A DNA stretch of 59,349 bases from an uncultured Chlorobiaceae bacterium (GTDB lineage: Bacteria; Bacteroidota; Chlorobiia; Chlorobiales; Chlorobiaceae). Shown here one piece after another: positions 14,077 to 33,849 of this stretch; positions within the stretch are counted from its first letter, which is position 1; each line of letters starts with the position of its first letter. The notes beneath the pieces were generated by a model, which searched no databases, had not been told where the DNA came from, and was given only the letters and a program-made list of their open reading frames with translations. The stretch is taken from contig CAIVSG010000072.1 in the NCBI GenBank assembly GCA_903908555.1, positions 1 to 59,349 on the forward strand, given 5' to 3'. The position numbers were made by a program, and so were the translations under genes.

Positions 14077-15339
14077 ATGTCCCTTGCTTTAAAACAAACA
14101 TATGAAAGAGAACTTTCTTTTGATGAAGTTGTTGCTAAATACCCTGAAGTTCCCCGTTTAATTATTGTCAAAATCGATGTTCAGCGTCGTGGCGTTCATT
14201 ACACTGATACGGCTCTTAGTGTTGTTGATCCTAAGATTCATCTTGTCAGAGATACTGGTACTCGTGAACTTTTTGGCGGAAGAGCTCAGGAAAAAAAGTC
14301 ATTACCAATCTCTCTTTTATTAAGGGATGGTACCTCAGTTATTACCAGTCCTACTCCACTCGAACAAAATCCTTATTTGGTTGATCTTGTTAATGGGCGG
14401 TTAGCATTGGTGGACAATGATGAAGTGATCGAGTATGTCGAATTGTGGAGAAGACCTCGCTACTACGATCTTAAAACCTCCTCTGGTATTCCGATGAGCC
14501 ATGTCCTGAGTGCACGGCCGCAGCGACTGAGCCTCACCCTGTCGAATTATTGCCATTTCTGGACGAAAAATCAAGGATGTCTTTATTGCGACAGCAATAG
14601 GGATAGCAAGCAGCTAAAAAAAGAGATTGGCATTCCTCGTGTCAAACCGCAAGACATTTCAGAAACCGTTCGAGAGGCACTGAAAGAGCCCGGGCGGTTT
14701 TCAACATTCTGTATTACAAGTGGCTCTATCCTTGCTGGCAATGAGCTCTTTGATAAAGAGGTTGATACCTACATTGAAGCACTGCAGGCGATAGGTGAGA
14801 ACTTTAAGACAAAAAAATTTCCCAGCCAAATGGTTGCTACAGCTTTTAACGAAAAGCAGTTGCAGCGACTTTATGACGAGACTGGAATTATGAGTTATAC
14901 CAGTGACCTTGAAGTGCTTAATGAAGAGAGATTCTCATGGATTTGCCCTGGAAAGGCTGAGAATGTTGGATATCAGGGTTGGAAACAGCGGGTAATTAGA
15001 GCGTTAGATATTTTCGGCAGGGGAAATGTTTCGAGTGGTTTTGTTGGAGGAGTGGAGCTAGCAAAACCTTATGGATTTATTCGTGAGGACGAAGCACTTC
15101 GTTCGACCCTCGAAGAGGCTGAATCGCTCGCAGAAAGTGGAGTTCCGGCCTTTTTTGTTGTTTGGGTTCCTCGTGCAGGATCTCCTTTTCATGACCAGCA
15201 AAGTCCTTCTCTTGATTATTTCGTACAGCTGGCGTCAGGTCTTCATCAGTTGAGGGTCAAGTATGGGTTGACCGTTGATTTTGATGACTATAGGCGTTGC
15301 GGGAATCATCCGGATACAGATTTATCCCGACTTCTATAA
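14077..15339 (+). CDS. Radical SAM protein with C-x8-C-x2-C motif
   Basis: 420 residues, first gene after attenuator B, with TAGGAGAT before the ATG. The probable cluster site is NYCHFWTKNQGCLYCDS: Cys159, 168 and 171, a C-x8-C-x2-C spacing rather than the canonical C-x3-C-x2-C. About 155 residues precede it and form a separate N-terminal domain; a C-terminal SAM barrel follows. I do not recognise a named family. The neighbours are a split-barrel flavoprotein and activase/HgdB-like proteins, suggesting a shared reductive pathway, perhaps C-S or C-C bond chemistry. Confidence 0.75.
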   Translation: MSLALKQTYERELSFDEVVAKYPEVPRLIIVKIDVQRRGVHYTDTALSVVDPKIHLVRDTGTRELFGGRAQEKKSLPISLLLRDGTSVITSPTPLEQNPYLVDLVNGRLALVDNDEVIEYVELWRRPRYYDLKTSSGIPMSHVLSARPQRLSLTLSNYCHFWTKNQGCLYCDSNRDSKQLKKEIGIPRVKPQDISETVREALKEPGRFSTFCITSGSILAGNELFDKEVDTYIEALQAIGENFKTKKFPSQMVATAFNEKQLQRLYDETGIMSYTSDLEVLNEERFSWICPGKAENVGYQGWKQRVIRALDIFGRGNVSSGFVGGVELAKPYGFIREDEALRSTLEEAESLAESGVPAFFVVWVPRAGSPFHDQQSPSLDYFVQLASGLHQLRVKYGLTVDFDDYRRCGNHPDTDLSRLL

Positions 15340-15414
15340 ATGGGTCTTCTAGTTATGTCCACTCTAATAGAATTATTGTCATTCAACCAATAACCAAAAG
15401 GGATAGAATATAAA

Positions 15415-15882
15415 ATGCCTATTCAATTATCACAGGAAGTAGTTTCACTTATAAATGACAAAGGAGCTTTTAAAGCACTCGCTACTGTCGATGAATCCGG
15501 GACTCCAAACGTTGTACAAAACGACTCCATTTACGTTGCAGAAAATGGAAATATCCATTATCTCGAGTTGCTCGAAACTTCCCGAACCAATCACAACCTA
15601 GTCAGGGCAATATGGTTTGACCGTAAAGTCTCAATTGTTGTCAGCGGAGCAGATCAAAAAAGTTTTCAGATTAAAGGGAAGGCAATTGAGGTGCACATAA
15701 CAGGTCCTCTTTACGAGAAACATTATGTCGAAATTCGCCAAAGACTCGGTGATGTTGATTTGTCAGGGGTGTGGGTAATCCAGCCAGAAGAGGTAATTGA
15801 TGAAAATTTCACTAATCGAAAAAATGAAGAGGAAACAAAACGACCTTTTTTCAGGCACTTGGATCGTTTAGCTAAAGTTTAA
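15415..15882 (+). CDS. Pyridoxamine 5'-phosphate oxidase-like split-barrel flavoprotein
   Basis: 155 residues. The first half (FKALATVDESGTPNVVQNDS, then a strand pair and a TSRTNHNL segment) fits the FMN-binding split barrel. AAGGGA lies before the ATG. It is 75 bp after the radical SAM gene and 112 bp before the activase, in one strand and probably one transcript. It may supply a flavin-dependent reduction or electron input to the activase system; this is inferred from position only. It is only distantly like the protein at 8628. Confidence 0.75.
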   Translation: MPIQLSQEVVSLINDKGAFKALATVDESGTPNVVQNDSIYVAENGNIHYLELLETSRTNHNLVRAIWFDRKVSIVVSGADQKSFQIKGKAIEVHITGPLYEKHYVEIRQRLGDVDLSGVWVIQPEEVIDENFTNRKNEEETKRPFFRHLDRLAKV

Positions 15883-15994
15883 GGCATTCAAGACTTTTTC
15901 TTGATCCATAGTAAAACCTTGTATGAGCGCAGACGTTCACAGGCAAAAATAGAGTTGTCAATGTATTCAAAAGAAAAAAAGAGGAGCGAATTAA

Positions 15995-16864
15995 ATGCAC
16001 AAAAATAAAATCCTGGCCGATGAGAAGGTTTCCGATCTGCTGCCAACCACAGTGATAGGTATTGACATCGGCTCACGTCAGGCAAAGGCGATTCTGGTTC
16101 ATGGCGACGAAATACATACGACAATCACGGCAAGCGGCGTTGATTCACAGGAAACCGCTGAGCGACTTATCAGAAAAGTTGTCAGGCAGACCGGAATTGG
16201 GCTCAAGGATATTGCCTATGTCGTCGGTACAGGTTACGGTCGTATTTCGCTTGAGTTTGATTCATTCCCGTCTGAAGTAGTAACCGAAATTTCATGTCAT
16301 GCAATGGGTGCTCATTTCCTTAATGCCGGCACCAGGACTATTATCGACATCGGTGGACAGGATTCAAAAGCCATCAAGGTCGATCCCGATAATGGCAGGG
16401 TAGTTGAATTTGTGATGAACGATAAGTGTGCTGCCGGTACAGGGCGCTTCCTAGAAAAGGTTGCTGAGTTGCTTGATTACAAACTCGAAGAGCTAGGGGA
16501 AAAAGCGTTGCTGGCACAAAAAAAACTTGAGGTTAGCAGCCAGTGTGTTGTATTTGCTGAGTCTGAAATCATTTCCCTTAAGGTCAAAGGCGAGCGACGC
16601 GAGGATATTGCTGCAGCAGTTCATTTTGCCTCTGCCCGACGCGTACGTAATCTGGTTAATCGTCTGGGATTGGAACCCGAACTCGTTTTTTCGGGGGGTG
16701 TAGCTAACAACCAGGGAATGCAGAAGGCTCTTGAAGAATTGATCGGCCATCCGTTTAAAGCCACAAAGCTCGATATGGTTTATGCAGGTGCATTAGGTGC
16801 CGCAGTGTTTGCCCAGCGTTATTATGAAGGTGTAAATTCCACATCAGAAAAGGAGGTCGCATGA
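15995..16864 (+). CDS. BadF/BcrA/HgdC-type ATPase (2-hydroxyacyl-CoA dehydratase activase)
   Basis: 289 residues of the ASKHA-fold activator family, which hydrolyses ATP to push one low-potential electron from a [4Fe-4S] cluster onto a partner enzyme. The sequence shows GIDIGSRQAKAILV (phosphate 1), TIIDIGGQDSKAI (phosphate 2) and two cluster cysteines in NDKCAAGTGRFLE (Cys145) and SSQCVVFAESE (Cys184); the cluster bridges a homodimer. Its 3' end overlaps the next gene by 4 bp. The next gene's N-terminal half is a close paralogue of it. Confidence 0.93.
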   Translation: MHKNKILADEKVSDLLPTTVIGIDIGSRQAKAILVHGDEIHTTITASGVDSQETAERLIRKVVRQTGIGLKDIAYVVGTGYGRISLEFDSFPSEVVTEISCHAMGAHFLNAGTRTIIDIGGQDSKAIKVDPDNGRVVEFVMNDKCAAGTGRFLEKVAELLDYKLEELGEKALLAQKKLEVSSQCVVFAESEIISLKVKGERREDIAAAVHFASARRVRNLVNRLGLEPELVFSGGVANNQGMQKALEELIGHPFKATKLDMVYAGALGAAVFAQRYYEGVNSTSEKEVA

Positions 16865-18894
16865 AACTCTCAGAAGTCATTGATCCAAGACTAGTCAATA
16901 AAATTGATAACAGCAGCGTACTTGGAGTAGATATAGGCTCTCGCGGAGCAAAAGCCGTCCTGTTGCATGGAGGTGAGCTTTTTGTTGCACAGGTGCCTAC
17001 AGGGGTTAATATGCAGGAAACAGCTGATGAATTGTTCGACGAGCTTCTTGATGTCGCTGGCATCACCCGCGACCAAATTCGTTTTATCGTCGGCACAGGT
17101 TACGGTCGTATTGCGCTTGAATTTGTCCAAATTCCACGAGAGATTGTTACTGAAATATCCTGCCATGCGATGGGAGCGCATTTTTTGAATGCTGATACAC
17201 GAAGCATTATTGACATAGGTGGTCAAGATTCTAAAGCCATCCAGGTTGACCCGAAAACCGGCAAGGTCACCAAATTCATAATGAACGACAAGTGCGCAGC
17301 AGGTACCGGACGCTTTCTGGAAAAAGCTGCGAGCTTACTTGAATACACGATAGCTGAAATTGGTCCAGCAGCACTTCAGGCAGAGTCAACACCTCTGATC
17401 AGCAGTCAGTGCGTAGTGTTTGCTGAATCTGAAATTATATCGCATCGTGCACGTGGTGAAACCCGCGAAGCAATTGCCTCAGGCCTTCACTATGCTTCAG
17501 CGAGGCGTGTGAAAAATTTAGTCAGCAAGATTCCGCTTGAGGGCGATCTTGTGTTCACCGGCGGCGTTTCGAATAATGTCGGTATGAAAAAAGCTCTTGA
17601 AGATCTGATTGGTCTGCCTATCAAAGCATTCAAACTCGATCCGGTCTATGCAGGCGCTCTTGGGGCTGCGGTGTATGCTCAGACGTTCTATGCAGAAAAG
17701 CGCATAGTTCTCTCAGAAAATGGAGAGGCCATCACAGCCGATATCCGCGATCTTATTGAGCGGACGACAGACGCTGAAAACGCATTTATCGAACGCAAGG
17801 ATGTGAAGAAAGTAGGGTACCTTTGCACGTACACTCCGATAGAGCTTCTCGCCGCATCAGGCGCAGCACATACCCGTCTCTTGAAATGCGGAGAACCGGA
17901 AGTGGTTTCACGTGGGGAACTGATCACCAAAAGCGTGTTTTGCGATTTCACCAAGAGTGTATTGGGACACTTTGCCGAAAAGGACCCTCTGCATGCAAGC
18001 CTCGACCAGGTTGTCACGTTCTGGACCTGTGACTCTATGAAAGCAACCTCAGAGGCGATCGATAACTTTTTTCAGCCTTCGGTAGGCTATGTTGTGCCTC
18101 GCAATGGCACTCGCGAAGCTGGTCGTAAGTTCTTTCGTCAGGAAATCCTCAATTTCCGAAAGGATCTTGCAAAACTCACCGGCAAACAGGTAACTGACGA
18201 CGAATTGTCTGAGCAGATTCACCAATACAACAAGATTCGCCGTCTGATCCGTGATATATCGGGACTGCGCAAGCGCGACAATCCACCGTTGGATGGACGC
18301 GATTTTCTTGAAATCACCAAGGCATTCTACTATCTGCAGCCCGAAGAACAGCTTGTACTGCTCGAAGATGTCTACCTTAGGCTCGCGAGTACACCACAAA
18401 CAGGAGTGGCTCCATTGCGCCTTATGATGTCGGGCGGTGTTGTCGCTGAGGGCGATCGGCGTATCCTTGACCTGATTGAAGACAACATTGGTGCACGAAT
18501 TGTAGTGGAAGATCATTGCTCAGGTCTCAGGCCATTTTACCATGAAACTGATGAAAAGATTGATCCTTGGCAGGCTCTGGCCAATGCCTATCTCGATCAG
18601 GCTCCATGCGCTCGACAGACTCCACTCGATACACTGCTGGATTTTTCTGTTCAGCTAGCTGAAGAATATCGAGTACAGGGCGTGATTTACACCTATCTCA
18701 AGTTTTGCCCATGCTTAGGCATGACGAAAAAGAGATTTATCAATCGCTTTGAAGACTTAGATATTCCTGTACTCGAGTTGGCTACTGATTATTCCAGTGG
18801 AGATATAGGCCAAATTACAACCCGTCTGGAAGCTTTTATAGAAGTTCTAAACGAAAAAAAGGAGATTTTAGATGTCGCTAATTACAGAGATTGA
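16861..18894 (+). CDS. Activase fused to dehydratase-like (HgdA/HgdB, DUF2229-like) subunit
   Basis: 677 residues. Residues 1-~280 are a second activase with GVDIGSRGAKAVLL, Cys145 in NDKCAAGTGRFLE and Cys184 in SSQCVVFAESE. Residues ~310-670 are a 2-hydroxyacyl-CoA dehydratase-type iron-sulfur domain, beginning KVGYLCTYTPIELLAASGA and carrying Cys in VFCDFTKS, FWTCDSMKA, DHCSGLRPF and KFCPCLGMTK. Activator and acceptor in one chain would tie ATP hydrolysis to cluster reduction. It overlaps the activase before it (4 bp) and the HgdB-like gene after it (23 bp), so all are coupled. No acyl-CoA genes are nearby, so the substrate need not be a CoA ester. Confidence 0.9.
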   Translation: MKLSEVIDPRLVNKIDNSSVLGVDIGSRGAKAVLLHGGELFVAQVPTGVNMQETADELFDELLDVAGITRDQIRFIVGTGYGRIALEFVQIPREIVTEISCHAMGAHFLNADTRSIIDIGGQDSKAIQVDPKTGKVTKFIMNDKCAAGTGRFLEKAASLLEYTIAEIGPAALQAESTPLISSQCVVFAESEIISHRARGETREAIASGLHYASARRVKNLVSKIPLEGDLVFTGGVSNNVGMKKALEDLIGLPIKAFKLDPVYAGALGAAVYAQTFYAEKRIVLSENGEAITADIRDLIERTTDAENAFIERKDVKKVGYLCTYTPIELLAASGAAHTRLLKCGEPEVVSRGELITKSVFCDFTKSVLGHFAEKDPLHASLDQVVTFWTCDSMKATSEAIDNFFQPSVGYVVPRNGTREAGRKFFRQEILNFRKDLAKLTGKQVTDDELSEQIHQYNKIRRLIRDISGLRKRDNPPLDGRDFLEITKAFYYLQPEEQLVLLEDVYLRLASTPQTGVAPLRLMMSGGVVAEGDRRILDLIEDNIGARIVVEDHCSGLRPFYHETDEKIDPWQALANAYLDQAPCARQTPLDTLLDFSVQLAEEYRVQGVIYTYLKFCPCLGMTKKRFINRFEDLDIPVLELATDYSSGDIGQITTRLEAFIEVLNEKKEILDVANYRD

Positions 18895-20146
18895 ACCCGT
18901 CGGGCTTGACATATCTTCGACAACACATGCCAAAATTGCGACTCGTTCTGAACTCCAGAACCAGCTGGAGTATATTAATGGCAGCAAAAGGGATCACAGT
19001 TACTCCCCTGGCATTGTCAAACTTTATGATTTAGCTCTAAGCTATGTCGAGGATGCCGAGCAGCATGCTAGGAATGGCGGTCGCGCAGCATGGGTAGGGG
19101 GAATATGGGAAGCTCCGCTGATGTATGCCTTGGGTATCGTTCCAATCTCTTTGACAGAGCTCGGTCGACTTGGTTCAAACGACGCCATGAGTGTAGCAGA
19201 AGATTACTTTCAATTGCCTAAAGAGTCTTGCTCCATGGTAGCCGCAGTGCTGGGCGAGTGGTATTTGCGTCGTAACCATCCGGTAAAGGATTTGATCGTT
19301 TTTAACAGGTCTTGCGAACCACTCAATCTTGGATGGGAGCTGATTGGAAAGGAAGGCTTTAATGTATACCGGATTGAGACTGTCAACCGACCACGTAACA
19401 ACGATCCAGAGCGACTTGCGGAGCATGTCACATTTCTGGCTGAAGAGTTTGCGGATCTGGCAATTCGGCTTACAGGTAAGCCTATAGATCAGGATCGCAT
19501 GGCAAACGAAATAGCGCGTCTGAATCGAATTTTAGGCAAAGTACGACAGATCCTCGAACTTCGTAAGAGTAATCCCCTCTACATCAAGAGTCTTGCCACC
19601 ATGTTCCTCATAATGGGTAGTGGTCACTATTTCGGTAAACCTGAACAATATGAGGCCACGCTCGACCTCTTGATCAGCGAACTGACGGTAGCGGACTTTA
19701 TTCCATCACCTCGCGGCAAGATTATTCCGCTTGCGTGGGTCGGAGGACGTGGTCAGGAATTCGGCGTTTACAAGACAGTTGATGATTGCGGTGGCGCAAT
19801 ACTCGCATGGAGCACTCCCAACATTTGGAGGTATGACTGGCCTGAGGCCAAGACTCCTTTGGAAACAATGGCCTTGCATATTCTTGGAGGAATCGGAGGG
19901 CATGGTGGCTCACCGGTTCACCGCCTGAAGCCGATTCAGAGGCTGATTGAAGAATACGGTGCACAGGGAATTCTCTTTTATTCCTACGTCGGATGTTCAT
20001 TTGCCGGAATTCACCATGAAGTCCAGCGTGAATATTTTCACAAACTGGGGATACGGTCAATCAGTTTGGAAGGTAGTTTTCAGGTCGGACCGCCGTCAGG
20101 TCAGTTGTTGACCAGAGTTAGAGCCTTCGTTGAAATGCTCACCTAA
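18872..20146 (+). CDS. 2-hydroxyacyl-CoA dehydratase/double-cubane-type (HgdB-like) subunit 1
   Basis: 424 residues of the HgdB/BcrC/double-cubane-protein superfamily. Cys120 (PKESCSMV), Cys148 (NRSCEPLN), Cys306 (VDDCGGAI) and Cys375 (YVGCSFAG) are all kept in the paralogue downstream, and three or more of them should bind an iron-sulfur cluster. A C-terminal QVGPPSGQLLTRVRAFVEML is typical. AGGAGA precedes the ATG, which lies inside the previous gene. It may pair with the dehydratase half of the fused protein. Whether the cluster is a [4Fe-4S] or a double cubane cannot be read from sequence. Confidence 0.88.
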   Translation: MSLITEIEPVGLDISSTTHAKIATRSELQNQLEYINGSKRDHSYSPGIVKLYDLALSYVEDAEQHARNGGRAAWVGGIWEAPLMYALGIVPISLTELGRLGSNDAMSVAEDYFQLPKESCSMVAAVLGEWYLRRNHPVKDLIVFNRSCEPLNLGWELIGKEGFNVYRIETVNRPRNNDPERLAEHVTFLAEEFADLAIRLTGKPIDQDRMANEIARLNRILGKVRQILELRKSNPLYIKSLATMFLIMGSGHYFGKPEQYEATLDLLISELTVADFIPSPRGKIIPLAWVGGRGQEFGVYKTVDDCGGAILAWSTPNIWRYDWPEAKTPLETMALHILGGIGGHGGSPVHRLKPIQRLIEEYGAQGILFYSYVGCSFAGIHHEVQREYFHKLGIRSISLEGSFQVGPPSGQLLTRVRAFVEMLT

Positions 20147-20231
20147 GCGTAAATTTCCGGAAGGATTATACCGGATTTTCCGGTACAGACTATCCTTTGC
20201 TGACTTGCCGATATTTCATCGAAAACAATAC

Positions 20232-20265
20232 AGCCTGTTATTTCCTGTCGCAGGAAATAACAGGC
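20232..20265. other. Perfect 16-bp hairpin between the two HgdB-like genes
   Basis: AGCCTGTTATTTCCTG and CAGGAAATAACAGGCT form a perfect stem with a TCG loop and no T tract after it. A smaller CCGGAA/TTCCGG stem precedes it at about 20156-20180. It may be an mRNA processing or stabilising element that sets the ratio of the two paralogues, or a remnant of the duplication. Confidence 0.75.
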
Positions 20266-20369
20266 TTACGTGCTCACAGTTGTCTGTCTGAGGGTTACAA
20301 TTTCAGAGGAGACAGCTCAATGGCGATTGTTGTTTATATAAGTTTTGAAAGAAAAAAGGGAGTTTATAG

Positions 20370-21647
20370 ATGTCGGTTACTACCGAAGTTAAGCCCAATG
20401 GGCTTGGAAAATCAGCGAATCCGGAACCCATAATTAAGACAAGGCAGGAGCTTAAAAACCAGCTTGACTATGTCAACTCAAGTAAAAAAGAACATAGTTA
20501 CTCTCCAGCCGTTGTCAAACTTTACGATCTTGCAATGACCTATGTTGAGGATGCCGAAAAACATGCAAAAAATGGTGGACGTTCAGCTTGGGTAATGGGA
20601 CTATGGGATGCTCCGCTGATGTATGCCTTGGATATAGTGCCAATATCTATGACGGAACTTGGTCGGCTTGGTTCAAATGATGCCATGTCGATAGCTGAAG
20701 ACTTTTTTCAATTACCTAAAGAAACCTGCTCGATGGTTGCTGCGGTGTTGGGAGAGTGGTATCTGCGTCGTAATAATACGGTTACTGACCTGGTTGTTTT
20801 CAACAGTTTGTGTGAACCACTAAACCTTGCTTGGGAACTGATTGGCGTCGAAGGCTATAAAGTATATCGTATCGAGACGGTCAATCGACCGCACGATAAC
20901 GATCCTGAGCGACTTGCCGAGCATATAAGCTTCCTTGCCGATGAGCTTGCCGATCTGGCTATCCGCCTTACAGGTAAGCCGGTAGATATGGATCGGGTAG
21001 CACACGAAATTAAACGGGCAAACCGCATTCTTGGCAAGGTCAGGCAAATCTTTGAACTGCGCAAAAGTAATCCTCTCTATATCAAGAGTCTTGCAACCAT
21101 GTTTCTGCTTATGGGTAGTGGTCACTACTTCGGAAAGCCAGAGCAATATGAGGCCACACTCGATTTACTGATCAGCGAACTGAAGGTTGCGGACTTTATA
21201 ATATCACCGCGTGGCAAGATTATTCCGCTTGCGTGGGTTGGAGGACGCGGTCAGGAATTCGGTGTTTACAAGACAGTAGACGATTGCGGTGGTGCAATAC
21301 TCGCATGGAGCACTCCTAATTCCTGGACACATGATTGGCCAGAGGCTAAGACTCCTCTCGAATCAATTGCCTCGCATATCCTTGGTGGAACTGGAGGGCA
21401 TGTTGTAGGTTCACCGGTTCATCGCCTGAAGCCCATAGAACGAGTAATTAAAGAGTACGGTGCAAAGGGCATCCTCTTCTACTCTTATGTCGGATGTTCA
21501 TTTGCCGGCATTCACCATGAAGTTCAGCGAGACTATTTCCACAAACTGGGGATACGTTCAATCAGTTTGGAAGGTAGTTTTCAGGTTGGACCACCGTCAG
21601 GTCAATTACTCACAAGGGTTCGCGCATTTGTGGAAATGCTTACGTGA
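20370..21647 (+). CDS. 2-hydroxyacyl-CoA dehydratase/double-cubane-type (HgdB-like) subunit 2
   Basis: 425 residues, a very close paralogue of the protein at 18872-20146 along its whole length. The four cysteines are kept (PKETCSMV, NSLCEPLN, VDDCGGAI, YVGCSFAG). AAAAAGGGAG precedes the ATG. It is separated from copy 1 by 223 bp with a strong hairpin. The pair may be two isoforms for one activase system, or two halves of a heterodimer. Differences cluster in the N-terminus and around residues 280-350 (IISPRGKI, HDWPEAKT, GGTGGHVVGS). Confidence 0.88.
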   Translation: MSVTTEVKPNGLGKSANPEPIIKTRQELKNQLDYVNSSKKEHSYSPAVVKLYDLAMTYVEDAEKHAKNGGRSAWVMGLWDAPLMYALDIVPISMTELGRLGSNDAMSIAEDFFQLPKETCSMVAAVLGEWYLRRNNTVTDLVVFNSLCEPLNLAWELIGVEGYKVYRIETVNRPHDNDPERLAEHISFLADELADLAIRLTGKPVDMDRVAHEIKRANRILGKVRQIFELRKSNPLYIKSLATMFLLMGSGHYFGKPEQYEATLDLLISELKVADFIISPRGKIIPLAWVGGRGQEFGVYKTVDDCGGAILAWSTPNSWTHDWPEAKTPLESIASHILGGTGGHVVGSPVHRLKPIERVIKEYGAKGILFYSYVGCSFAGIHHEVQRDYFHKLGIRSISLEGSFQVGPPSGQLLTRVRAFVEMLT

Positions 21648-21708
21648 AATTATGTAGACCATCTGTTGAAAAGTTTTCACAGCAACCAAATGATAAATAC
21701 AGAAAACT

Positions 21709-22254
21709 ATGATTGAGTTATTACGAAACCGCCGAAGTATCAGGAGATATACAAATGAAAAAATAGTTCCTGAAACCGTTAAAGTGATCATTGAAGCAGC
21801 ACTAAGAGCTCCATCGGCGCGGGGAATAAATCCTTGGCAATTTATTTTGGTTGATGAACCTGAACTGATTATCCAACTCTCCCAATCAAAACAATCTGGG
21901 TCAGAGTTTCTTAAAACAGCACCATTTGCAATTGTTGTATGCGCCGATAGTACCAAGACAGAGTTTTGGATTGAAGATTGTTCAATTGCAGCAACAATCA
22001 TCCAGCTTACAGCATCATCATTGGGGCTTGGCAGTTGCTGGGTACAAATTCGAACCCGTCAGCATGATGATTTAAAAACGGCTGAAACCTACATACAGGA
22101 GTTGCTGGGTTTGCCTGAGCATATAAAGATAGCTTCCATATTGGGCATAGGGTATCCGGATGAAACCAAGCCATCTGTACCAACAGACACACTTCAATAT
22201 GAAAAAATTAAATATAACCGGACTTCGATTGCCTTTAAAGAAACGATAGTATGA
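21709..22254 (+). CDS. Nitroreductase-family flavoprotein
   Basis: 181 residues of the FMN-dependent nitroreductase fold: RRSIRRYTNE near the N-terminus (FMN phosphate contacts), LRAPSARGINPWQFILV, and the C-terminal LGIGYPDETKPS. It starts 61 bp after the second HgdB-like gene and probably belongs to the same unit. It could provide NAD(P)H- or ferredoxin-linked flavin chemistry to the pathway. The ribosome-binding site is weak. Confidence 0.85.
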   Translation: MIELLRNRRSIRRYTNEKIVPETVKVIIEAALRAPSARGINPWQFILVDEPELIIQLSQSKQSGSEFLKTAPFAIVVCADSTKTEFWIEDCSIAATIIQLTASSLGLGSCWVQIRTRQHDDLKTAETYIQELLGLPEHIKIASILGIGYPDETKPSVPTDTLQYEKIKYNRTSIAFKETIV

Positions 22255-22693: not shown

Positions 22694-22695
22694 TG

Positions 22696-25315: not shown

Positions 25316-26110
25316 ATGATTAAGAAAATATTTAAGCGATTAGGGTTAAAAGATAAGCTTCTTGGGCTTATAGTTCCGTTTCTGTTGCTGATTATTTGGC
25401 AGGGAGCAGTAACAAAACATTTATTTTCGGAACTACTGGTTGTCCCGCCTTTAACTTTGTTGAATACCCTTATTGAATTGGCCAAATCAGGGGATCTGTC
25501 TTCTAATATTTTAGCAAGCCTTAATAGAGTCTTGATTGGTTTTTTGATTGGCGCATCAGGCGGATTTATTCTTGGGATAGCTATGGGATTGTCACCAATT
25601 ATAAATAGAACTTTGTCTCCATTAGTCAAGGCACTGCAACAGGTGCCTGAGTTTGCTTGGATGCCCGTTATAATATTGCTTTTTGGAATTGATGAGTTTG
25701 CTAAAAATATTTTCATAGCCATTGGTGCCTTTTATCCAATGCTTTTTAATACATATCTAGGTGTTAGCGGTGTTCCGGATAAATATCATGAACTTGCGCA
25801 GGTGTATCAATACAAAAGCCATCGATATCTTGCAAAAGTTATACTACCGAGTGCATTACCATCAATAATTACCGGTATTCGTCTGAGTCTTGGTTTATCC
25901 TGGGTATTTGTAGTCGGAGCTGAGTTTTTTGGTACAGAGGCAGGAGTAGGTTTTATGATGATTTCTGGTCGACAGCTCTTCCAGATAGATGTAGTTATGG
26001 CTGGACTGGTTGTTATTGGGACAATAGGATTTTTGTTGAATTATGTTTTGCAATTGCTTGAAAAAAAACTTTCGGGTGGTCGTGTTGCCTTTGATGGAGG
26101 AATTGCTTGA
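25316..26110 (+). CDS. ABC importer permease (SsuC/TauC-like) 1
   Basis: 264 residues from ATG 25316; a longer frame from 25226 would run through the terminator and is rejected. About six hydrophobic helices, beginning LLGLIVPFLLLIIWQGA. The cytoplasmic coupling segment ELAQVYQYKSHRYLAKVILPSALPSI is the EAA loop that docks the ATPase. Its stop overlaps the start of the next permease (TGATG), so the two are coupled and probably form a heterodimeric channel. Confidence 0.9.
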   Translation: MIKKIFKRLGLKDKLLGLIVPFLLLIIWQGAVTKHLFSELLVVPPLTLLNTLIELAKSGDLSSNILASLNRVLIGFLIGASGGFILGIAMGLSPIINRTLSPLVKALQQVPEFAWMPVIILLFGIDEFAKNIFIAIGAFYPMLFNTYLGVSGVPDKYHELAQVYQYKSHRYLAKVILPSALPSIITGIRLSLGLSWVFVVGAEFFGTEAGVGFMMISGRQLFQIDVVMAGLVVIGTIGFLLNYVLQLLEKKLSGGRVAFDGGIA

Positions 26111-26889
26111 TGAATATCAGTAAAAGAACAAAATCAGTACTGGGCAGTATTTTATTACCCGTAGTTCTGATTATTCTATGGCAATATATCTTTTCTGCAG
26201 GTTATATCGCTTCTGCAATTCTTCCCTCACCCCACCAAGTCATTAAAACATTTATTATTCATTTTACTGAAAATGAGTATTCCTTTCATATTATCTCAAG
26301 TTTAAAGCGTGTGTTGAGTGGTTTTTTTATAGGTATTGTAAGTGGTTTTCTTTTCGGATTATTCATCGGATTATCTCGAACAGCAGAAAAGATATTTTCA
26401 CCCTCATTTAATGCAGTTCGGCAAATATCAATAATAGGATGGATTCCACTTATTGTCATGTGGTTCGGAGTAAACGAATTTCCTCGAATCATCATTATCG
26501 CCGCCGCTGCCTTTTATCCTATCGCACTTAATACTTTTGCTGGAGTGCGAAATGTCCCCAGAGAGTACGTTGAACTTGCCTCTGTATATGGTTATAACAG
26601 ATTGAAACTGATTACTCGAATTATTCTGCCATCAGCCTTGCCTTCAATTGCAACAGGTATTACCCTCGCACTTGGAATGTCATGGGCCATGTTAATGGCT
26701 GCAGAACTTTTCATACCAACAAATATTGGTATCGGTACACGAATTCAAATAGGGCGAGAAAAATTCAATATGGCATTGATTCTGGTAGGTATTATCACTG
26801 TAGGTTCACTCGGGTTTGCAATGACGTCGATAGTTGAAATCATAGCTCATGCAGCAGATCGAGGACGCATTCTTCGAAAAGAAATTTAA
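26110..26889 (+). CDS. ABC importer permease (SsuC/TauC-like) 2
   Basis: 259 residues, with GGAGGAATT upstream and start codon overlapping the stop of permease 1. Hydrophobic helices begin VLGSILLPVVLIILWQYIF. EAA loop: ELASVYGYNRLKLITRIILPSALPSIATG. Two different permeases with one ATPase imply a heterodimeric channel, which is less common for SsuC-type systems than a homodimer. Confidence 0.9.
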   Translation: MNISKRTKSVLGSILLPVVLIILWQYIFSAGYIASAILPSPHQVIKTFIIHFTENEYSFHIISSLKRVLSGFFIGIVSGFLFGLFIGLSRTAEKIFSPSFNAVRQISIIGWIPLIVMWFGVNEFPRIIIIAAAAFYPIALNTFAGVRNVPREYVELASVYGYNRLKLITRIILPSALPSIATGITLALGMSWAMLMAAELFIPTNIGIGTRIQIGREKFNMALILVGIITVGSLGFAMTSIVEIIAHAADRGRILRKEI

Positions 26890-26907
26890 ACACACAAGGA
26901 TAAGAAC

Positions 26908-27687
26908 ATGTCAGTTGAGAAAGGTACACTTGAGATCAGGAATCTTAGCAAAAGTTATGTTGTTGACAACAATCAATTGCAGATACTTAAAAATATCAAT
27001 ATAACCTTCCCTTCAGGCGCCTTTGTATCTATTCTCGGTTCCAGTGGTTGCGGAAAAACAACCTTGCTGCGCATTATGCTCGGTCTTGAAAAGCAATATG
27101 AAGGTGATGCCCTGATTGATGGTGAGAAGATAAAAGGGCCAGGATCGAACAGAGGAATAGTTTTCCAGGATCACCGTCTCCTTCCATGGCTTACGGTTGG
27201 GGAGAATGTTGCTTTTGGTCTTGATAAGCTTAACCGTAAAGAGAAGAAACTTCTTGTTGACGATCATTTAAAGCTTGTTGGTCTCAGTGGATTTGAGAAC
27301 GCTTATCCTTCAAACCTTTCAGGAGGAATGGCTCAGCGCGTAGCTATTGCAAGAGCTTTGGCGAACAAACCTGAAATACTTCTTCTCGATGAACCTCTCG
27401 GAGCATTGGATGCTTTGACGAGAATGTATATGCAAAAAGAACTCGAGAGATTATGGGAGTTTGAAAAGATTACCATGATCATGGTTACACATGATGTTGA
27501 AGAAGCAATTTATTTGAGTGACAAAATAGTCATTATGTCTTCTCGTCCAGGGGTCATCAAAAAAGTAATAGACATTCCATCAGCGAGGCCTAGGGATCGT
27601 GCAAGCTCTGAGTTTATGCATATAAAAGCCGAGATATTGAAAGAGTTCCATCTTGGTACCGAATACCCATTTGCTTATGCAATTTGA
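26908..27687 (+). CDS. ABC importer ATPase (SsuB/TauB-like) 1
   Basis: 259 residues. Walker A GSSGCGKTT (near residue 48), Q-loop VFQDHRLLPWLTV, signature LSGGMAQRVA, Walker B ILLLDEPLGALDA and switch His in MVTHDVEEA. AAGGA precedes the ATG. It energises the two permeases upstream. A 100-bp gap follows before SBP2. Confidence 0.93.
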   Translation: MSVEKGTLEIRNLSKSYVVDNNQLQILKNINITFPSGAFVSILGSSGCGKTTLLRIMLGLEKQYEGDALIDGEKIKGPGSNRGIVFQDHRLLPWLTVGENVAFGLDKLNRKEKKLLVDDHLKLVGLSGFENAYPSNLSGGMAQRVAIARALANKPEILLLDEPLGALDALTRMYMQKELERLWEFEKITMIMVTHDVEEAIYLSDKIVIMSSRPGVIKKVIDIPSARPRDRASSEFMHIKAEILKEFHLGTEYPFAYAI

Positions 27688-27787
27688 TTCTTTCATAAGG
27701 AGTTGGGCCTGTTAAGAAGATTCATTCGATATAAACATCAACAGTCCAATTCAGTGATAAATCTGATGAGAATATTTAGGAAAAACC

Positions 27788-28837
27788 ATGAATAACAAAG
27801 TAAACGTGATCATCGTAGCAGCTATTGCCATTGTGGTTACAGGTATTGGATGGTTTGCTGTCCAGAAGTCCACGTCCAGGACAGAACAGGTGGTAATTCG
27901 AGAACTTCAATCAACAGCTCCTGCACAATGGGAACTCGCTAAAAAACTCGCAGGGAGGGATATTCTTGCTGAAGAGGGTGTGAGAATAGAACTGATCAAT
28001 AGTATTCAGACTGGAGGAGGTACCGTGATACTCCAGGCTCTCCTTGCCAATAACATTGATGTTGGGGGTTCCGCCTGGCCCGCATGGATCAACATTATTG
28101 CTCGTGGAGGCAAGATCAAAGCGCTTCTTGGTACGATGGTATCAACAAAAGACAACGAGTGCAGCCAGCAGGGTCTGCTTGTTCTCAACGAAAGCAATAT
28201 TCACGAGATCAAGGATTTGGTTGGTAAAAGGATTGCGGTTAATGTGCTAGGTGCAGAAGCGGATTACGTTATTCGATTTTTTCTTAAAAAGCACGGACTT
28301 TCAATTTCTCAGGTACAATTAGTTGTGGTTCCAGGATCACAACAGGAAAAGATGCTGCGCAGCCGGCAGGTAGATGCAATAGCATTTGGAACCATAGCCG
28401 GTGTGGATTTTGACATGGCTGTAGCCAACGGTGGAGTGCGACAGATACCGGGCACTACAAACTATGAAACCAAGGGCGAAACCGTATTGGCCGGCATCGG
28501 TTTCAGGACTGATTTTATTGAAAAGCATCCTGATGCCGTGAGAAGATACCTTCGCGCGTATGATGGTGCCCGCCGTATAATTTACAATGAGTTCCAGAAA
28601 GATCCTGAACGGGTAAGAAAGGCCTACGCTGAAATAAGTGTTGAAAAAGGCAGCAATCCTCGCTTGGCAAAATATTTCCGTGCAACCCTTTGGAATCCTG
28701 ATTATCCGTTGATTGCAGACAATGATATTCAGTGGTGGTTTGATCGGTTTATTGAGGACGGTTTATTGAAACAGGGGCAGATAAAACCATCTGATATCTA
28801 TACGAATGAGTTCAATCCATTGTACAAGAAAAAGTGA
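27788..28837 (+). CDS. Membrane-anchored ABC substrate-binding protein, SBP2
   Basis: 349 residues of the NMT1/SsuA-like fold, with AGGA 8 nt before the ATG. The N-terminal helix (VIIVAAIAIVVTGIGWFAV) has no lipobox or clear cleavage site, so it looks like an uncleaved anchor facing the periplasm. Landmarks: LQALLANNIDVGGSAWPAW, GKRIAVNVLGAEADYVIR, LRSRQVDAIAFG and the C-terminal FNPLYKKK. First of four close paralogues (others at 30682, 31734, 32806). Its pocket loop lacks the SESAW of the others. Confidence 0.82.
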   Translation: MNNKVNVIIVAAIAIVVTGIGWFAVQKSTSRTEQVVIRELQSTAPAQWELAKKLAGRDILAEEGVRIELINSIQTGGGTVILQALLANNIDVGGSAWPAWINIIARGGKIKALLGTMVSTKDNECSQQGLLVLNESNIHEIKDLVGKRIAVNVLGAEADYVIRFFLKKHGLSISQVQLVVVPGSQQEKMLRSRQVDAIAFGTIAGVDFDMAVANGGVRQIPGTTNYETKGETVLAGIGFRTDFIEKHPDAVRRYLRAYDGARRIIYNEFQKDPERVRKAYAEISVEKGSNPRLAKYFRATLWNPDYPLIADNDIQWWFDRFIEDGLLKQGQIKPSDIYTNEFNPLYKKK

Positions 28838-28918
28838 ACTTCCCGCTGGTTTACGTCCTGGTGGATTGACAATACATGATGCGTCTCTTGAATATTTCAA
28901 TATTGAAAAAGTAAGGTT

Positions 28919-29755
28919 ATGGACATAATTGTAGCAAAGGACGTGCGAAAAAAATTCAAACTCAAGCACGGCCAGCAGGTGAAGAACAATGGAATTATCT
29001 CTAACGAGATTGATGCCTTGGGAGGTTTTGATCTGAATATTAAAAAAGGTGAGTTCCTTGTATTAGTCGGGCCGAGTGGTAGTGGGAAATCTGTATTTCT
29101 TGATATCGTAGGCGGATTAAGTGCTCCTACGAGTGGTGTCGTCTACCTTGACAACAAACCGGTAGATGCTCCTAGTGAAAAGACCGGTTACGTCTTTCAG
29201 CAGTATGCATTGTTCCCTTGGAGAACTGCTCTGTCGAATATTGAATTCGGGCTTGAGTCTCGAGGAGTCGTTAAAGAGGAACGGATAAAAATTGCCCGTG
29301 AACTGTTATCCCTTTTCGGACTCTCTGATTTTGAAGACCGCTATCCTTACCAGCTTTCCGGAGGTATGCAGCAAAGGGTCGCTATAGCTCGTGCTCTTGC
29401 TACTAAGCCGGAAGTATTATTGATGGACGAGCCTTTTGCTGCTCTTGATGCACAGACCAGGGAGATTCTTCAGAACGAACTTATCCGGATATGGGAGGGA
29501 ACCGATACCACGGTGATTTTCGTAACTCATAGTATTGATGAGGCGGTATTTCTCGCAGACAGGGTAGCTGTTGTTACTGCTCGCCCAGGAAAGATCAAAG
29601 AAATAATTGAGATAGATCTGCCAAGGCCAAGAAATGGAGATATCAGATCAAGCAGTGAATTTGCAGCTAACCGACATAAGGTGTGGGGAGCGCTCAAGGC
29701 AGAAGTCAACAAAGCTCAACAGGAATGGAAGCTCGCGCCAGGGTTTACCGATTAA
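28919..29755 (+). CDS. ABC importer ATPase (SsuB/TauB-like) 2
   Basis: 278 residues. Walker A GPSGSGKSV, Q-loop VFQQYALFPWRTA, signature LSGGMQQRVA, Walker B VLLMDEPFAALDA, switch FVTHSIDEA. An N-terminal extension of about 35 residues (KKFKLKHGQQVKNNG) is unlike ATPase 1. The upstream 81 bp contain a TTTCAATATTGAAA palindrome. Confidence 0.92.
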   Translation: MDIIVAKDVRKKFKLKHGQQVKNNGIISNEIDALGGFDLNIKKGEFLVLVGPSGSGKSVFLDIVGGLSAPTSGVVYLDNKPVDAPSEKTGYVFQQYALFPWRTALSNIEFGLESRGVVKEERIKIARELLSLFGLSDFEDRYPYQLSGGMQQRVAIARALATKPEVLLMDEPFAALDAQTREILQNELIRIWEGTDTTVIFVTHSIDEAVFLADRVAVVTARPGKIKEIIEIDLPRPRNGDIRSSSEFAANRHKVWGALKAEVNKAQQEWKLAPGFTD

Positions 29756-29793
29756 CTGAATTAAAACAATGCAAAGAATAAAGGAGATTTCTT

Positions 29794-30657
29794 ATGTCAG
29801 AAGAACTTACGGTACCTTCAGAGATCAGATTAAAACCCCGATCTATTGATATCAGTTTGTATACAAGAAAGTTAAAGCCTTTTATTGTTGGTCTGTACCA
29901 TTGGTCGCACGGTATTCCATTGGTTCTTGTGTTTTTTGCAGTATGGGAGGCCCTTCCTCGTCTGGGGATCATCAATCCACTTTTTCTGCCGACGTTTTCT
30001 TCAACTCTCCAAACGTTGATTGAACTGACTCTCTCAGGGCAATTATTGTTGCATGCATTGGTCAGTCTGCAACGAGCTGCCGCAGGGTTTGGTCTGGCAC
30101 TTGTGATTGCAGTGCCTTTTGGCTTTTTAATGGGTCATTACACTAAGTTTGAAAGATATACAGATCTACTCGTGCAAGGTTTGCGCAATGTATCGACCTT
30201 TGCCCTCCTGCCGATCTTTCTCCTCCTATTGGGCCTTGGGGAGTCATCGAAGATCGCCATCATATTCTATGCAGCAAGCTGGCAGATTCTCATGAACACT
30301 ATCAGCGGAGTTAAAAGTGTTGATCCCATTTATATAAAGGCGGCAAGGTCGATGGGGGTTTCTGATTTTGAATTGTTCACAAAAGTTATTCTTCCTGCAA
30401 GCATTCCTTCAATAGTTATTGGTGCCCGTTTAGGGGCGAAGATTGCTCTGATGGTGGTTATTGCAGCAGAGATGATCGGTGCCAAATCCGGACTTGGATT
30501 TTTTATCCAGAATGCAGAATTCAATTTCTTGGTACCTGAAATGTATGCCGGAATCTTGGCTCTGGCAATTGTTGGTTTGGTTGTGAATTATCTGTTGGTA
30601 TGGGTTGAAAAGAAAACAACCTCATGGAAGCGTGATATAAGCGGAGCAATTCAGTGA
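29794..30657 (+). CDS. ABC importer permease (SsuC/TauC-like) 3
   Basis: 287 residues, AAAGGAGATT before the ATG. Six-helix core with IPLVLVFFAVWEALPRLGI at the start and the EAA loop IKAARSMGVSDFELFTKVILPASIPSIV. As the only permease of the second importer it would act as a homodimer with ATPase 2. It lies between SBP2 and SBP3, so one channel may be fed by SBP2-SBP5. Confidence 0.9.
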   Translation: MSEELTVPSEIRLKPRSIDISLYTRKLKPFIVGLYHWSHGIPLVLVFFAVWEALPRLGIINPLFLPTFSSTLQTLIELTLSGQLLLHALVSLQRAAAGFGLALVIAVPFGFLMGHYTKFERYTDLLVQGLRNVSTFALLPIFLLLLGLGESSKIAIIFYAASWQILMNTISGVKSVDPIYIKAARSMGVSDFELFTKVILPASIPSIVIGARLGAKIALMVVIAAEMIGAKSGLGFFIQNAEFNFLVPEMYAGILALAIVGLVVNYLLVWVEKKTTSWKRDISGAIQ

Positions 30658-30681
30658 TAAATATGGTTTGAATACAAAAAA

Positions 30682-31737
30682 ATGAATAACAAGGCAAAGG
30701 CACTCTCTATTGTTCTCATTGCTATCGCTATTGCTATCGCTATTGCTGGGGCCGGATGGTTTGCTTATAAAAAGAGTGCGCCGAAAAATGAAAACGTTGT
30801 AATACGAGAGCTTGAATCTACTCTACCAACACAGTGGGAACTTGCTAAAAAACTTACGGGTCGTGACATCCTTCTTGAAGAGGGTGTGAAACTTGAGTTG
30901 ATTCGTAGTGTTCAGAGTAGTGGAGGTACCACAGCACTTCAGGCTCTTTTGGCTAATAATATCGATGTTACCTCTGAGTCAGCATGGCCTGCATGGATAA
31001 ACGTTATCGCACGTGGGGGTAAGATTAAAGCCCTTCTTCCTTTTAGGGTATCAACGAAAGATAATGATAGCAACCGTCATGGCCTATTAGTTTTGAATGA
31101 GAGCAGTATTCATTCAATCAAAGACCTTACCGGTAAAAGGATCGCAGTTAATGTTCTTGGTGCGGAAGCGGATTATGTTATTCGTTTGTACCTCAAAAAG
31201 AATGGACTCTCAATTTCGCAGGTACAGTTGGTTGTTGTTCCTGTTTCACAGCAGGAACAGATGCTGCGCAGCCGGCAGGTGGACGCCGCAAGCAGCGGGG
31301 GGGCTGAGTTTGAGTTAGCTGTTGCCAACGGTGGTGTTCGTCAGATACCAGGCACCAGAAACTATGAAACCAAAGGTGAAGCTGTAGCGTCTGGCATTGG
31401 TTTCAGGAATGATTTTATCGAGAAACATCCTGATGCCGTCCGAAGATACATTCGGGCTTATGACCTGTCCCGGCGCATAATCTACAGTAAGTTCCAGAAA
31501 GATCCTGAACGGGTAAGAAAGGCTTATGCCGTCATCAGTGTCGAAAAAGGCAGTAATCCTCGCTTAGCCAGATATTATCGCCCAAACCTTTGGACTCCGG
31601 ATTTTCCATTTATCGTTGACAAGGATATCCAGTGGTGGATTGATCGATTTATAGAGGATGGATTATTAAAACCGGGACAGATAAAGCCCTCTGATATTTA
31701 TACCAATGAATTCAATCCTCTTTATAAGAAAAAATGA
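30682..31737 (+). CDS. Membrane-anchored ABC substrate-binding protein, SBP3
   Basis: 351 residues, paralogue of SBP2. The anchor helix is lengthened by an in-frame GCTATC/GCTATT repeat coding AIAIAIAIAIAGAG. Pocket segments: NNIDVTSESAWPAW, STKDNDSNRHG and VDAASSGGAEFELAV, all different from the other copies. The last 4 bp overlap SBP4. The ribosome-binding site is poor. Confidence 0.82.
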   Translation: MNNKAKALSIVLIAIAIAIAIAGAGWFAYKKSAPKNENVVIRELESTLPTQWELAKKLTGRDILLEEGVKLELIRSVQSSGGTTALQALLANNIDVTSESAWPAWINVIARGGKIKALLPFRVSTKDNDSNRHGLLVLNESSIHSIKDLTGKRIAVNVLGAEADYVIRLYLKKNGLSISQVQLVVVPVSQQEQMLRSRQVDAASSGGAEFELAVANGGVRQIPGTRNYETKGEAVASGIGFRNDFIEKHPDAVRRYIRAYDLSRRIIYSKFQKDPERVRKAYAVISVEKGSNPRLARYYRPNLWTPDFPFIVDKDIQWWIDRFIEDGLLKPGQIKPSDIYTNEFNPLYKKK

Positions 31738-32777
31738 ATAGTAAAATAAAGATAAGCTTAGTTGTTGTCATTGGTTTGGTAATTGCATCCATCGGATGGT
31801 TTGCTTTCAAGAATACCAATTCCAACCCTGAAAACGTTGTAATACGAGAGCTTGAGTCTACTGCCCCGACACAGTGGGATCTTGCAAAAAAACTGACAGG
31901 TAGGGATCTACTGCTAGAAGAAGGTGTAAAACTTGAGCATGTTCTTACAGTCCAGAGTAGTGGAGGAACAACATCCCTTCAGGCGCTACTGGCTAATAAC
32001 ATTGATGTTTGCACAGAGTCAGCCTGGCCCCCGTATATAAATATTATTGCCCGCGGAGGAAAGATCAAGGCGCTCCTTGGTGTTACGGTATCAACAAAGG
32101 ACAATGAATGCAGCCGGCAGGGGCTGTTAGTTCTTGATGAGAGTAATATTTATACGATCAAGGATCTCCCCGGTAAAAGGATTGCAGTTAATGTTCTGGG
32201 TGCGGAATCGGATTATGTCATTCGGCTCTATCTCAAAAAAAATGGACTTTCAATCTCCCAAGTAGAACTGGTTGCTGTGCCACCCGAAAAACAGGAACAG
32301 ATGCTGCGTAGCAGGCAGGTGGATGCCATCTCCGTTACCAGAGTTCATTATGAAATGACTCTTGCAAACGGAGGAGTGCGTCAAATACCAGGTACAACAA
32401 ACTTTGAAACGAAGGGCGAAGCAGTATCAGGAGCACTCAGTTTCAGAAATGATTTTATTGAGAGACATCCTGAAGCCGTCCGAAAATATCTACGTGCATT
32501 TGATGGAGCCCGCCGCATAGTTTACAAAGAATTCCAGAAAGATCCTGAACGGGTAAGAAAGGCCTATGCAGATATCAGTGCCGAAAAAGGAAGTAATCCT
32601 AGCTTGGCAAAGTATTTTCAGGCTACCCTTTGGAATCCTGATTTTCCATTTATCGCTGACAAGGATATCCAGTGGTGGATTGATCGATATATAGAGAGTG
32701 GATTATTGAAACCCGGCCAGTTAAAACCGTCAGATATCTATACAAATGAATTCAACCCTCTTTATAAGAAAAAGTGA
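31734..32777 (+). CDS. Membrane-anchored ABC substrate-binding protein, SBP4
   Basis: 347 residues. The start overlaps the stop of SBP3 by 4 bp, so translation is coupled. Pocket segments: NNIDVCTESAWPPYI, STKDNECSRQG and VDAISVTRVHYEMTL. The framework (GKRIAVNVLGAESDYVIRLY, FQKDPERVRKAY, FNPLYKKK) is nearly unchanged from its paralogues. Confidence 0.82.
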   Translation: MNSKIKISLVVVIGLVIASIGWFAFKNTNSNPENVVIRELESTAPTQWDLAKKLTGRDLLLEEGVKLEHVLTVQSSGGTTSLQALLANNIDVCTESAWPPYINIIARGGKIKALLGVTVSTKDNECSRQGLLVLDESNIYTIKDLPGKRIAVNVLGAESDYVIRLYLKKNGLSISQVELVAVPPEKQEQMLRSRQVDAISVTRVHYEMTLANGGVRQIPGTTNFETKGEAVSGALSFRNDFIERHPEAVRKYLRAFDGARRIVYKEFQKDPERVRKAYADISAEKGSNPSLAKYFQATLWNPDFPFIADKDIQWWIDRYIESGLLKPGQLKPSDIYTNEFNPLYKKK

Positions 32778-32805
32778 ATAACCGGCATTACACGATTAAA
32801 AATAT

Positions 32806-33849
32806 ATGAATCGTACAACAAAGATAAGCTTGGCTGTTGTCATTGGTTTAGTGACTGCATCTATTGGATGGTTTGCTTTCAAGAAGACCACTCCGCAGAA
32901 CGATAACGTTGTAATTCGAGAGCTTGAGTCAACTGCACCGACACAGTGGGAACTTGCAAAAAAACTGACAGGCAGGGATATTCTTGAAGAAGAAAGTGTA
33001 AAACTAGAGCTGATTCGTAGTGTCCAGAGCAGCGGAGGTACAACATCACTTCAGGCGCTTTTGGCCAATAATATTGATGTTTGTTCTGAATCAGCATGGC
33101 CTGCATGGATAAATGTTATCGCCCGTGGCGGCAAAATTAAGGCGCTCCTTGATATTTGTGTAACAACAAAAGACAATGAGGGTGGGCAGCAGGGAATGCT
33201 AGTTCTTGATGATAGCAGTATTCATTCAATCAAGGACCTGCCCGGTAAAAGGATTGCTGTTAATGTGCTCGGTGCTGAATCGGATTATGTCATCCGCCAT
33301 TTTCTCAAAAAAAATGGACTTTCAATTTCACAGGTGGAGTTGGTTGTTGTGCCACTTGAACAGCAGGAGCAGATGCTTCGCAGTCATCAGGTTGATGCTG
33401 CTTGCATCGGCAGAGTTGCTTTTGACATGACTCTCGCTAGCGGTGGCGTAAGGCAAATACCCGGCACCACGAACTATGAAACCAAGGGCGAATCAGTAAT
33501 GTCCGGTTTAGGTTTCAGGAATGATTTCATCGAGAAACATCCTGATGCCGTTCGAAGATACATTAGGGCTTATGACATATCTCGCCGCATAATTTACAGT
33601 GAATTCCAGAAAGATCCCCAACGGGTACGAAAGGCGTATGCCGATATCAGTGTCGAAAAAGGCAGTAATCCAGTCGTGGCAAAATATTTCCGGGCTACCC
33701 TTTGGAATCCTGATTTTCCATTTATCGTTGACAAGGATATTCAGTGGTGGATCAATCGATTTGTTGATGACGGATTGCTGAAACTTGGCCAGTTAAAACC
33801 TTCAGATATCTATACAAATGAGTTCAATCCTTTGTATAAGAAAAAATAA
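32806..33849 (+). CDS. Membrane-anchored ABC substrate-binding protein, SBP5
   Basis: 347 residues, most like SBP4. Pocket segments: NNIDVCSESAWPAW, TTKDNEGGQQG and VDAACIGRVAFDMTL. Last gene of the importer unit. The 266-bp gap that follows (33850-34115) has only a weak GCTCAATAGAGC hairpin and no clear gene or strong terminator. Confidence 0.82.
   Translation: MNRTTKISLAVVIGLVTASIGWFAFKKTTPQNDNVVIRELESTAPTQWELAKKLTGRDILEEESVKLELIRSVQSSGGTTSLQALLANNIDVCSESAWPAWINVIARGGKIKALLDICVTTKDNEGGQQGMLVLDDSSIHSIKDLPGKRIAVNVLGAESDYVIRHFLKKNGLSISQVELVVVPLEQQEQMLRSHQVDAACIGRVAFDMTLASGGVRQIPGTTNYETKGESVMSGLGFRNDFIEKHPDAVRRYIRAYDISRRIIYSEFQKDPQRVRKAYADISVEKGSNPVVAKYFRATLWNPDFPFIVDKDIQWWINRFVDDGLLKLGQLKPSDIYTNEFNPLYKKK

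Follow-up and report, generated by a model that had tools for sequence, protein, structure and literature searches.

Assimilation of sulfonates through SsuD and TauD requires O2, and to our knowledge it is still largely unclear how anaerobes draw on stable organic compounds for sulfur. We have analysed a contig of 59,349 nucleotides (C72, hereafter the window) from a 2.8-Mb Chlorobiaceae metagenome-assembled genome (MAG) of 81% completeness, labelled G000, which carries on one strand (+) two neighbouring operons, A (14077-22254) and B (22809-33849), the former encoding an HGD-family enzyme with its activases and the latter a porin, importers and binding proteins. The SsuABC/SsuD and TauABC/TauD systems resemble this locus in combining similar ABC importers with a sulfur-releasing enzyme under sulfur control, but differ in their need for O2, and the Bac_luciferase (SsuD/SfnG) and TauD families gave zero matches across the 81%-complete assembly, in agreement with a preliminary description of this DNA.

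In the class I benzoyl-CoA reductase (BCR) BzdNOPQ, six cysteines of subunit BzdN bind an [8Fe-9S] cluster, and three cysteines of BzdO bind a catalytic [4Fe-4S]-OH2 cluster (PMC11971306). The window shares with it two activase domains, the six-cysteine N-type and three-cysteine O-type subunits and the fold, but here the N subunit has one of the activases fused to it, His131 is absent from the catalytic subunit, which matches no BCR model, and the context is cysteine-regulated sulfur uptake with no CoA pathway. The double-cubane cluster protein (DCCP), taken with its reductase, is what the HgdB-like subunit resembles most in sequence and fold, and it likewise performs an ATP-driven low-potential reduction. 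Both subunits of the DCCP homodimer contain a double cubane, however, whereas in the window the six cysteines are retained only in the fusion. TudS, a desulfidase of 4-thiouridine monophosphate, belongs to the same superfamily of BCR I and 2-hydroxyacyl-CoA dehydratases (HAD) and also takes sulfur off an organic molecule, but is a single-domain, sulfur-transferring [4Fe-5S] enzyme without the activase and two-subunit set found here (PMC11971306). The methylthio-alkane reductase MarHDK has a similar proposed logic, ATP-driven reductive C-S cleavage for an O2-free sulfur supply, but its catalytic family is unrelated to the HGD system (PMC12552129); Mar-related genes often adjoin the HGD system or share a genome with it.

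Operons A and B probably constitute one cysteine-responsive system for the anoxic scavenging of sulfur from organic compounds through C-S cleavage by the HGD enzyme. A role in sulfur acquisition is very probable; C-S cleavage by the HGD enzyme is favoured, with less assurance, from the sequences. The case consists of the genes, a shared DNA box, cysteine leaders with terminators, linkage and co-occurrence in relatives, and cysteines corresponding to cluster ligands. The gene inventory of the preliminary description was found in full, on one strand, with gaps mostly short or overlapping and with family matches for most genes. Its proposal of sulfur acquisition through an activase/HgdB-type reductase is supported by the cysK box, the conserved leaders, the co-occurrence with nitrogenase-like genes and the co-linearity with cysK in another phylum; its suggestion of an O2-free counterpart of SsuD/TauD is one option among several, as the substrates may be sulfonates, thioethers or other compounds.

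The enzyme is predicted, from alignments and a structural model, to be a complex of the BzdNOPQ type in which one activase and the N-type subunit are fused and the active site differs. Cysteines C322, C361, C390, C553, C583 and C616 of the fusion align to C36, C73, C100, C263, C293 and C327 of BzdN and are invariant in 13 of 13 sequences. In the second HgdB-like protein just three cysteines are invariant, C120, C148 and C376, and these align to Cys95, 128 and 380 of BzdO. The two HgdB-like proteins are 82% identical to each other, have their nearest homologues in uncultured Chlorobiaceae (green sulfur bacteria), and are with the fusion the only three HGD-D proteins in the MAG. An AlphaFold model of the HgdB-like protein (pLDDT 77, pTM 0.81) finds DCCP, HAD and BCR as its only structure matches, followed by a sharp drop in score. 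Membership of each of these families was rejected at the level of equivalog models: for BCR, BzdQ scored 196 bits against a cut-off of 380 and BzdN 126 against 454, the BzdO model gave no match and His131 is missing; for DCCP (NF040772) the scores were 215, 63 and 67 against 350; and for HAD the HadC model gave 91.8 against 700 bits with the fusion.

These comparisons bear on a quite improbable alternative, in which the enzyme is a BCR or HAD of carbon catabolism with a CoA ester as its substrate and the sulfur genes are incidental neighbours. The fold, cluster ligands and activases are indeed the same, and homologues are found in betaproteobacteria that degrade aromatics, where they lie on a plasmid that also carries acyl-CoA genes; against this, the island contains no CoA ligase or acyl-CoA gene, every BCR and HAD cut-off is missed widely, the catalytic histidine is absent, and a regulatory box is common to the island and cysK. 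A second HGD type, present in four further genomes (G010, G013, G023 and G036), was searched for the six-cysteine site and aligns at only three of six columns, and the double cubane is therefore predicted only for the HGD type of the window.

The box, GGTANNNANNNTRCC-N8-GGGATTT, spans 30 bases. A scan of 41 genomes gave 31 matches in 17 genomes and none for the reversed control pattern, and of the MAG's five exact copies, four lie inside the window. The independent support for the box is its placement upstream of cysK in eight related species, where it lies approximately 25-70 nt before the gene and, in most of the eight, directly 3' of a LuxR-type response-regulator gene. The response regulator immediately before the box and cysK, as at L087, L092 and similar loci, is a candidate regulator of the regulon. 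The MAG's own cysK has a version of the box with two mismatches. Further box neighbours in the scanned genomes include sulfate-binding-protein genes, SsuB-like ATPases, variant radical S-adenosylmethionine (SAM) proteins and a second activase type.

Between the box and the first gene of each operon lies a short leader reading frame. The preliminary description had called leaders A and B near-identical; the leaders are real and have a CCCC run and a terminator in common, but are otherwise not near-identical. Orthologous porin operons retain the leader (MSKIFCCCCLEYYDKKGFIPI, MSKINCCCRSEYDDKKGFIPI and MSNIICCCYIQYHDRKGFIPM in L013, L014 and L015), and conservation in orthologues of a short cysteine-run reading frame followed by an intrinsic terminator is the hallmark of a cysteine attenuator. 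The alignment of 16 leaders included the window leader at 8433 and one preceding the second HGD type in G023; because their consensus fold recovered the terminator hairpin only, and no conserved antiterminator, we infer rather than observe attenuation by Cys-tRNA shortage. Elsewhere in the MAG, a cysteine leader and terminator precede an 81%-identical paralogue (contig C42, 137-1402) of the porin-like gene at 49142-50239, and another leader (MCCCCCGLQKHSDKRISGSTT) with a terminator precedes a small predicted membrane protein on contig C236.

The three-gene core (activase, activase-HGD fusion, HgdB-like protein) was found again in Rhodobacter viridis, Rhodovulum strictum and betaproteobacteria as well as in seven Chlorobiaceae genomes, with the separate activase not resolved at one locus (L021). 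The porin/importer operon adjoins the core at L013, L014 and L015 and is close by at L016 and L017, and in G010 and G036 the second HGD type lies within a transporter operon ordered porin, SBP1, activase, HGD, permeases and ATPase (46-47% identity to the window for the activase, approximately 32% for HGD). In Rhodovulum strictum, a member of another phylum, a single strand carries a DmoA-family monooxygenase, an SsuA-type importer, the activase-HGD fusion, HgdB, a rhodanese and CysK (446.9 bits, cut-off 351), and near this cluster are a type 2A encapsulin, an Rrf2 regulator and a sulfate-binding protein. The encapsulin shell gene (L150, 6061-6984) is SrpI-like, at 533 bits. A wide search of the Rhodobacteraceae revealed no further members of the reductase (1/298).

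Nitrogenase-like genes lie upstream of operon A at L013, L014 and L015. The L015 D and K subunits match methylthio-alkane reductase best, at 152 and 283 bits against approximately 77 and 98 for the next family, and their best PDB matches are MarD and MarK (9FMG/9D9U). A MarK-like protein was found in seven of the eight HGD genomes tested by handle, and in six of eight HGD-bearing Chlorobiaceae, compared with 5 of 24 further genomes of the genus (Fisher p=0.01, uncorrected for shared ancestry). The preliminary description had set the HGD system beside nitrogenase-like enzymes as a different family with the same logic; the families do differ, but since relatives usually have both, one is not simply an alternative to the other. 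The frequent co-occurrence, and the known capacity of activases to act as electron chargers, would also suit a system that uses ATP to activate or mature some other redox enzyme, for instance the nitrogenase-like HDK proteins, by analogy with reductive activases. We regard this as very improbable: G000 and G064 have the HGD system without a detected MarK-like protein, some genomes with Mar-like genes lack it (G003 and G006), and it has a BzdO-like catalytic subunit of its own. In true MarD, Cys270 and His429 hold the [Fe8S9C] cofactor (PMC12552129). Asp and Ser replace them in the L015 protein, which should therefore not be named Mar, and identity of these neighbours with true methylthio-alkane reductase was rejected.

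The unusual radical SAM protein of operon A was confirmed as an NF045502 member with a C-x8-C-x2-C motif. For the split-barrel flavoprotein that follows it, the gene is present but the family call is weak, the PNPOx_N match of its L126 homologue reaching 1.6e-5. At L132, L126 and L124, three to five variant radical SAM paralogues with the same motif stand in tandem beside MarHDK-like genes, and it is possible that these are substrate-diversified enzymes. Such arrays would suit another reading of the sulfur scavenging, in which the variant radical SAM protein or the flavoproteins cut the C-S bond and HGD supplies very low-potential electrons or handles the carbon skeleton later; they stand beside MarHDK-like genes in related sulfur islands even where HGD is absent (L126 and L131), and the pair of radical SAM and split-barrel genes also accompanies Mar-like genes (L126 and L154). 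This explanation is unlikely, though less so than the others considered, in that the three-gene HGD core occurs without adjacent radical SAM genes at L010-L012 and L018-L022, has a [4Fe-4S] site of the catalytic type, and in Rhodovulum shows direct linkage to rhodanese and cysK.

Operon B encodes two importers, with three permeases and two ATPases in all, and five NMT1/SsuA-type binding proteins (SBP1 to SBP5). In the test for SsuA-type importers (TIGR01728/SsuA_fam, cut-off 163.5), SBP1 scored 155.2 and SBP2-SBP4 76-105, all below the cut-off, with SBP5 outside the scan. The label 'sulfonate-type' used in the preliminary description is thus a family resemblance only. SBP2-SBP5 are paralogues of 73-79% identity, and the short segments that differ among them may line the ligand pocket. 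The porin itself gave an empty Pfam scan; its L013 homologue matches Porin_O_P at 41.9 bits. The low SsuA scores, and the diversity of ligands bound by NMT1-type proteins, would be consistent with importers and an HGD enzyme that handle a sulfur-free nutrient, cysteine regulation mirroring only a high demand for Fe-S clusters and cysteine. This too has little to recommend it, as the porin/importer operon itself has the box and a cysteine leader, and there are links to a sulfate-binding protein, cysK, a DmoA-type monooxygenase and rhodanese.

Several observations nonetheless weigh against C-S cleavage by a cysteine-regulated HGD system. No sulfur genes are visible near the three-gene core in Azoarcus, Aromatoleum and one betaproteobacterial MAG. 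By alignment, the HgdB-like subunit has Leu151 in place of the catalytic His131 of BzdO. The window's own genome has no detected MarK-like protein, and with the MarD cofactor ligands missing the chemistry of the nitrogenase-like neighbour is uncertain. The binding proteins scanned fall short of the SsuA cut-off. Finally, two of the four window copies of the box helped to define its pattern, and box clustering in the window alone is therefore not independent evidence.

If operons A and B do form a sulfur-scavenging system, scarcity of cysteine would cause ribosomes to stall at the Cys codons of the leaders, and the terminators would be bypassed. The porin, two SsuA-type importers and five binding proteins would then import several related organosulfur compounds. 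The two activase domains would spend ATP to drive ferredoxin-level electrons into the BzdN-like domain, with its predicted [8Fe-9S] reservoir, and from there to an open-coordinated [4Fe-4S] cluster of the HgdB-like subunit, which would cleave the C-S bond reductively, the released sulfur entering CysK. The radical SAM, PNPOx-like and nitroreductase proteins may be accessory or act on related substrates.

Coordinates of the operons, boxes and leaders are collected in Table 1 with those of neighbouring units. The genes of the unit at 8628-13505 are found again in islands of relatives. A Type ISP restriction-modification enzyme (38099-42976) separates the sulfur operons from the sulfate-binding-protein region, and the sulfate-binding-protein/OsmC pair with its box (43551-45305) is duplicated on contig C175 at 94% and 98% identity. 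ARAGORN reported a tRNA-Pyl with a CUA anticodon at 50339-50414. Its sequence is almost the same as that of the neighbouring tRNA-Cys (50532-50606), and it looks like a duplicated tRNA-Cys and possible amber suppressor rather than a pyrrolysine tRNA.

Table 1. Features of the window, in order of position
Feature	Coordinates	Strand	Evidence or remark
cysK-type box before related unit (PNPOx, ABC pair, radical SAM)	8284-8313	+	GGTATGCAATATGCCGTATACACGGGATTT, exact match
Cysteine leader MLSNYISDGSCCRHLKTRIDKKVFALQ (CC)	8433-8516	+	terminator ~8546-8580 downstream
Associated unit: PNPOx-like 8628-9089, ABC transporter pair 9182-12807, radical SAM 12849-13505	8628-13505	+	Pfam
cysK-type box, operon A	13622-13651	+	exact match
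Cysteine leader A, MSNIQCCCCLEKYFYLRILRYYNT	13890-13964	+	terminator ~13990-14025 downstream
Variant radical SAM protein	14077-15339	+	NF045502 210.5 bits, cut-off 125; C-x8-C-x2-C
PNPOx-like (split-barrel) protein, weak assignment	15415-15882	+	PNPOx_N E=0.0014, below cut-off
Activase, BzdQ/BcrA-like ATPase	15995-16864	+	TIGR00241 245.7 bits (over cut-off); BcrAD_BadFG 203 bits
Activase fused to BzdN-like HGD subunit	16861-18894	+	BcrAD_BadFG 193 bits and HGD-D 260 bits
HgdB-like catalytic subunit candidate 1	18872-20146	+	HGD-D 126 bits
HgdB-like catalytic subunit candidate 2	20370-21647	+	HGD-D 130 bits; three invariant cysteines
Nitroreductase-family flavoprotein	21709-22254	+	Pfam 92 bits
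cysK-type box, operon B	22357-22386	+	exact match
Cysteine leader B, MLNLSCCCCLKYHYRKVFVRM	22628-22693	+	terminator ~22723-22760 downstream
Outer-membrane porin	22809-24194	+	65% to L013 porin
SBP1, SsuA-like binding protein	24208-25257	+	SsuA_fam 155.2 bits, cut-off 163.5
Importer 1: permeases 25226-26110 and 26107-26889, ATPase 26908-27687	25226-27687	+	
SBP2 binding protein	27788-28837	+	NMT1 and SsuA_fam
Importer 2: ATPase 28919-29755, permease 29794-30657	28919-30657	+	
SBP3, SBP4, SBP5, tandem binding-protein paralogues	30682-33849	+	mutual identity 74-79%
ABC transporter pair, recurrent in related islands	34032-37723	+	Pfam; L130 homologues 71-78%
Sulfate-binding protein	43551-44567	-	NF008022 500 bits, cut-off 288
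cysK-type box between sulfate-binding-protein and OsmC genes	44704-44733	+	exact match
Third CCCC leader, upstream of second porin-like gene	48909-49013	+	terminator ~49043-49078 downstream
Porin-like gene below third CCCC leader	49142-50239	+	position, signal sequence; Pfam scan empty

A literature search, with subscription papers outside its coverage, returned no prior report of HGD-type enzymes in organosulfur use. The sulfur-scavenging role, the subunit fusion and the regulon appear to be new, while the family, fold and cluster types are already known. On the wider proposal our judgement is evenly balanced: a branch of the BCR/HAD superfamily may have turned into an ATP-dependent C-S-cleaving reductase for free, non-CoA organosulfur compounds, under a new Chlorobiaceae cysteine regulon of box and Cys-run attenuators, and have passed between Chlorobiota and purple bacteria as part of modular islands that also carry nitrogenase-like and variant radical SAM enzymes. 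The regulon and enzyme set are concrete enough to test, and the box/leader cassettes can serve as search handles for further organosulfur enzymes. If the proposal is true, it would represent a second, nitrogenase-independent ATP-driven solution, in which BCR-type chemistry reaches beyond CoA esters, and would explain how cysteine synthesis could be supplied in green sulfur bacteria whose waters are low in sulfide.

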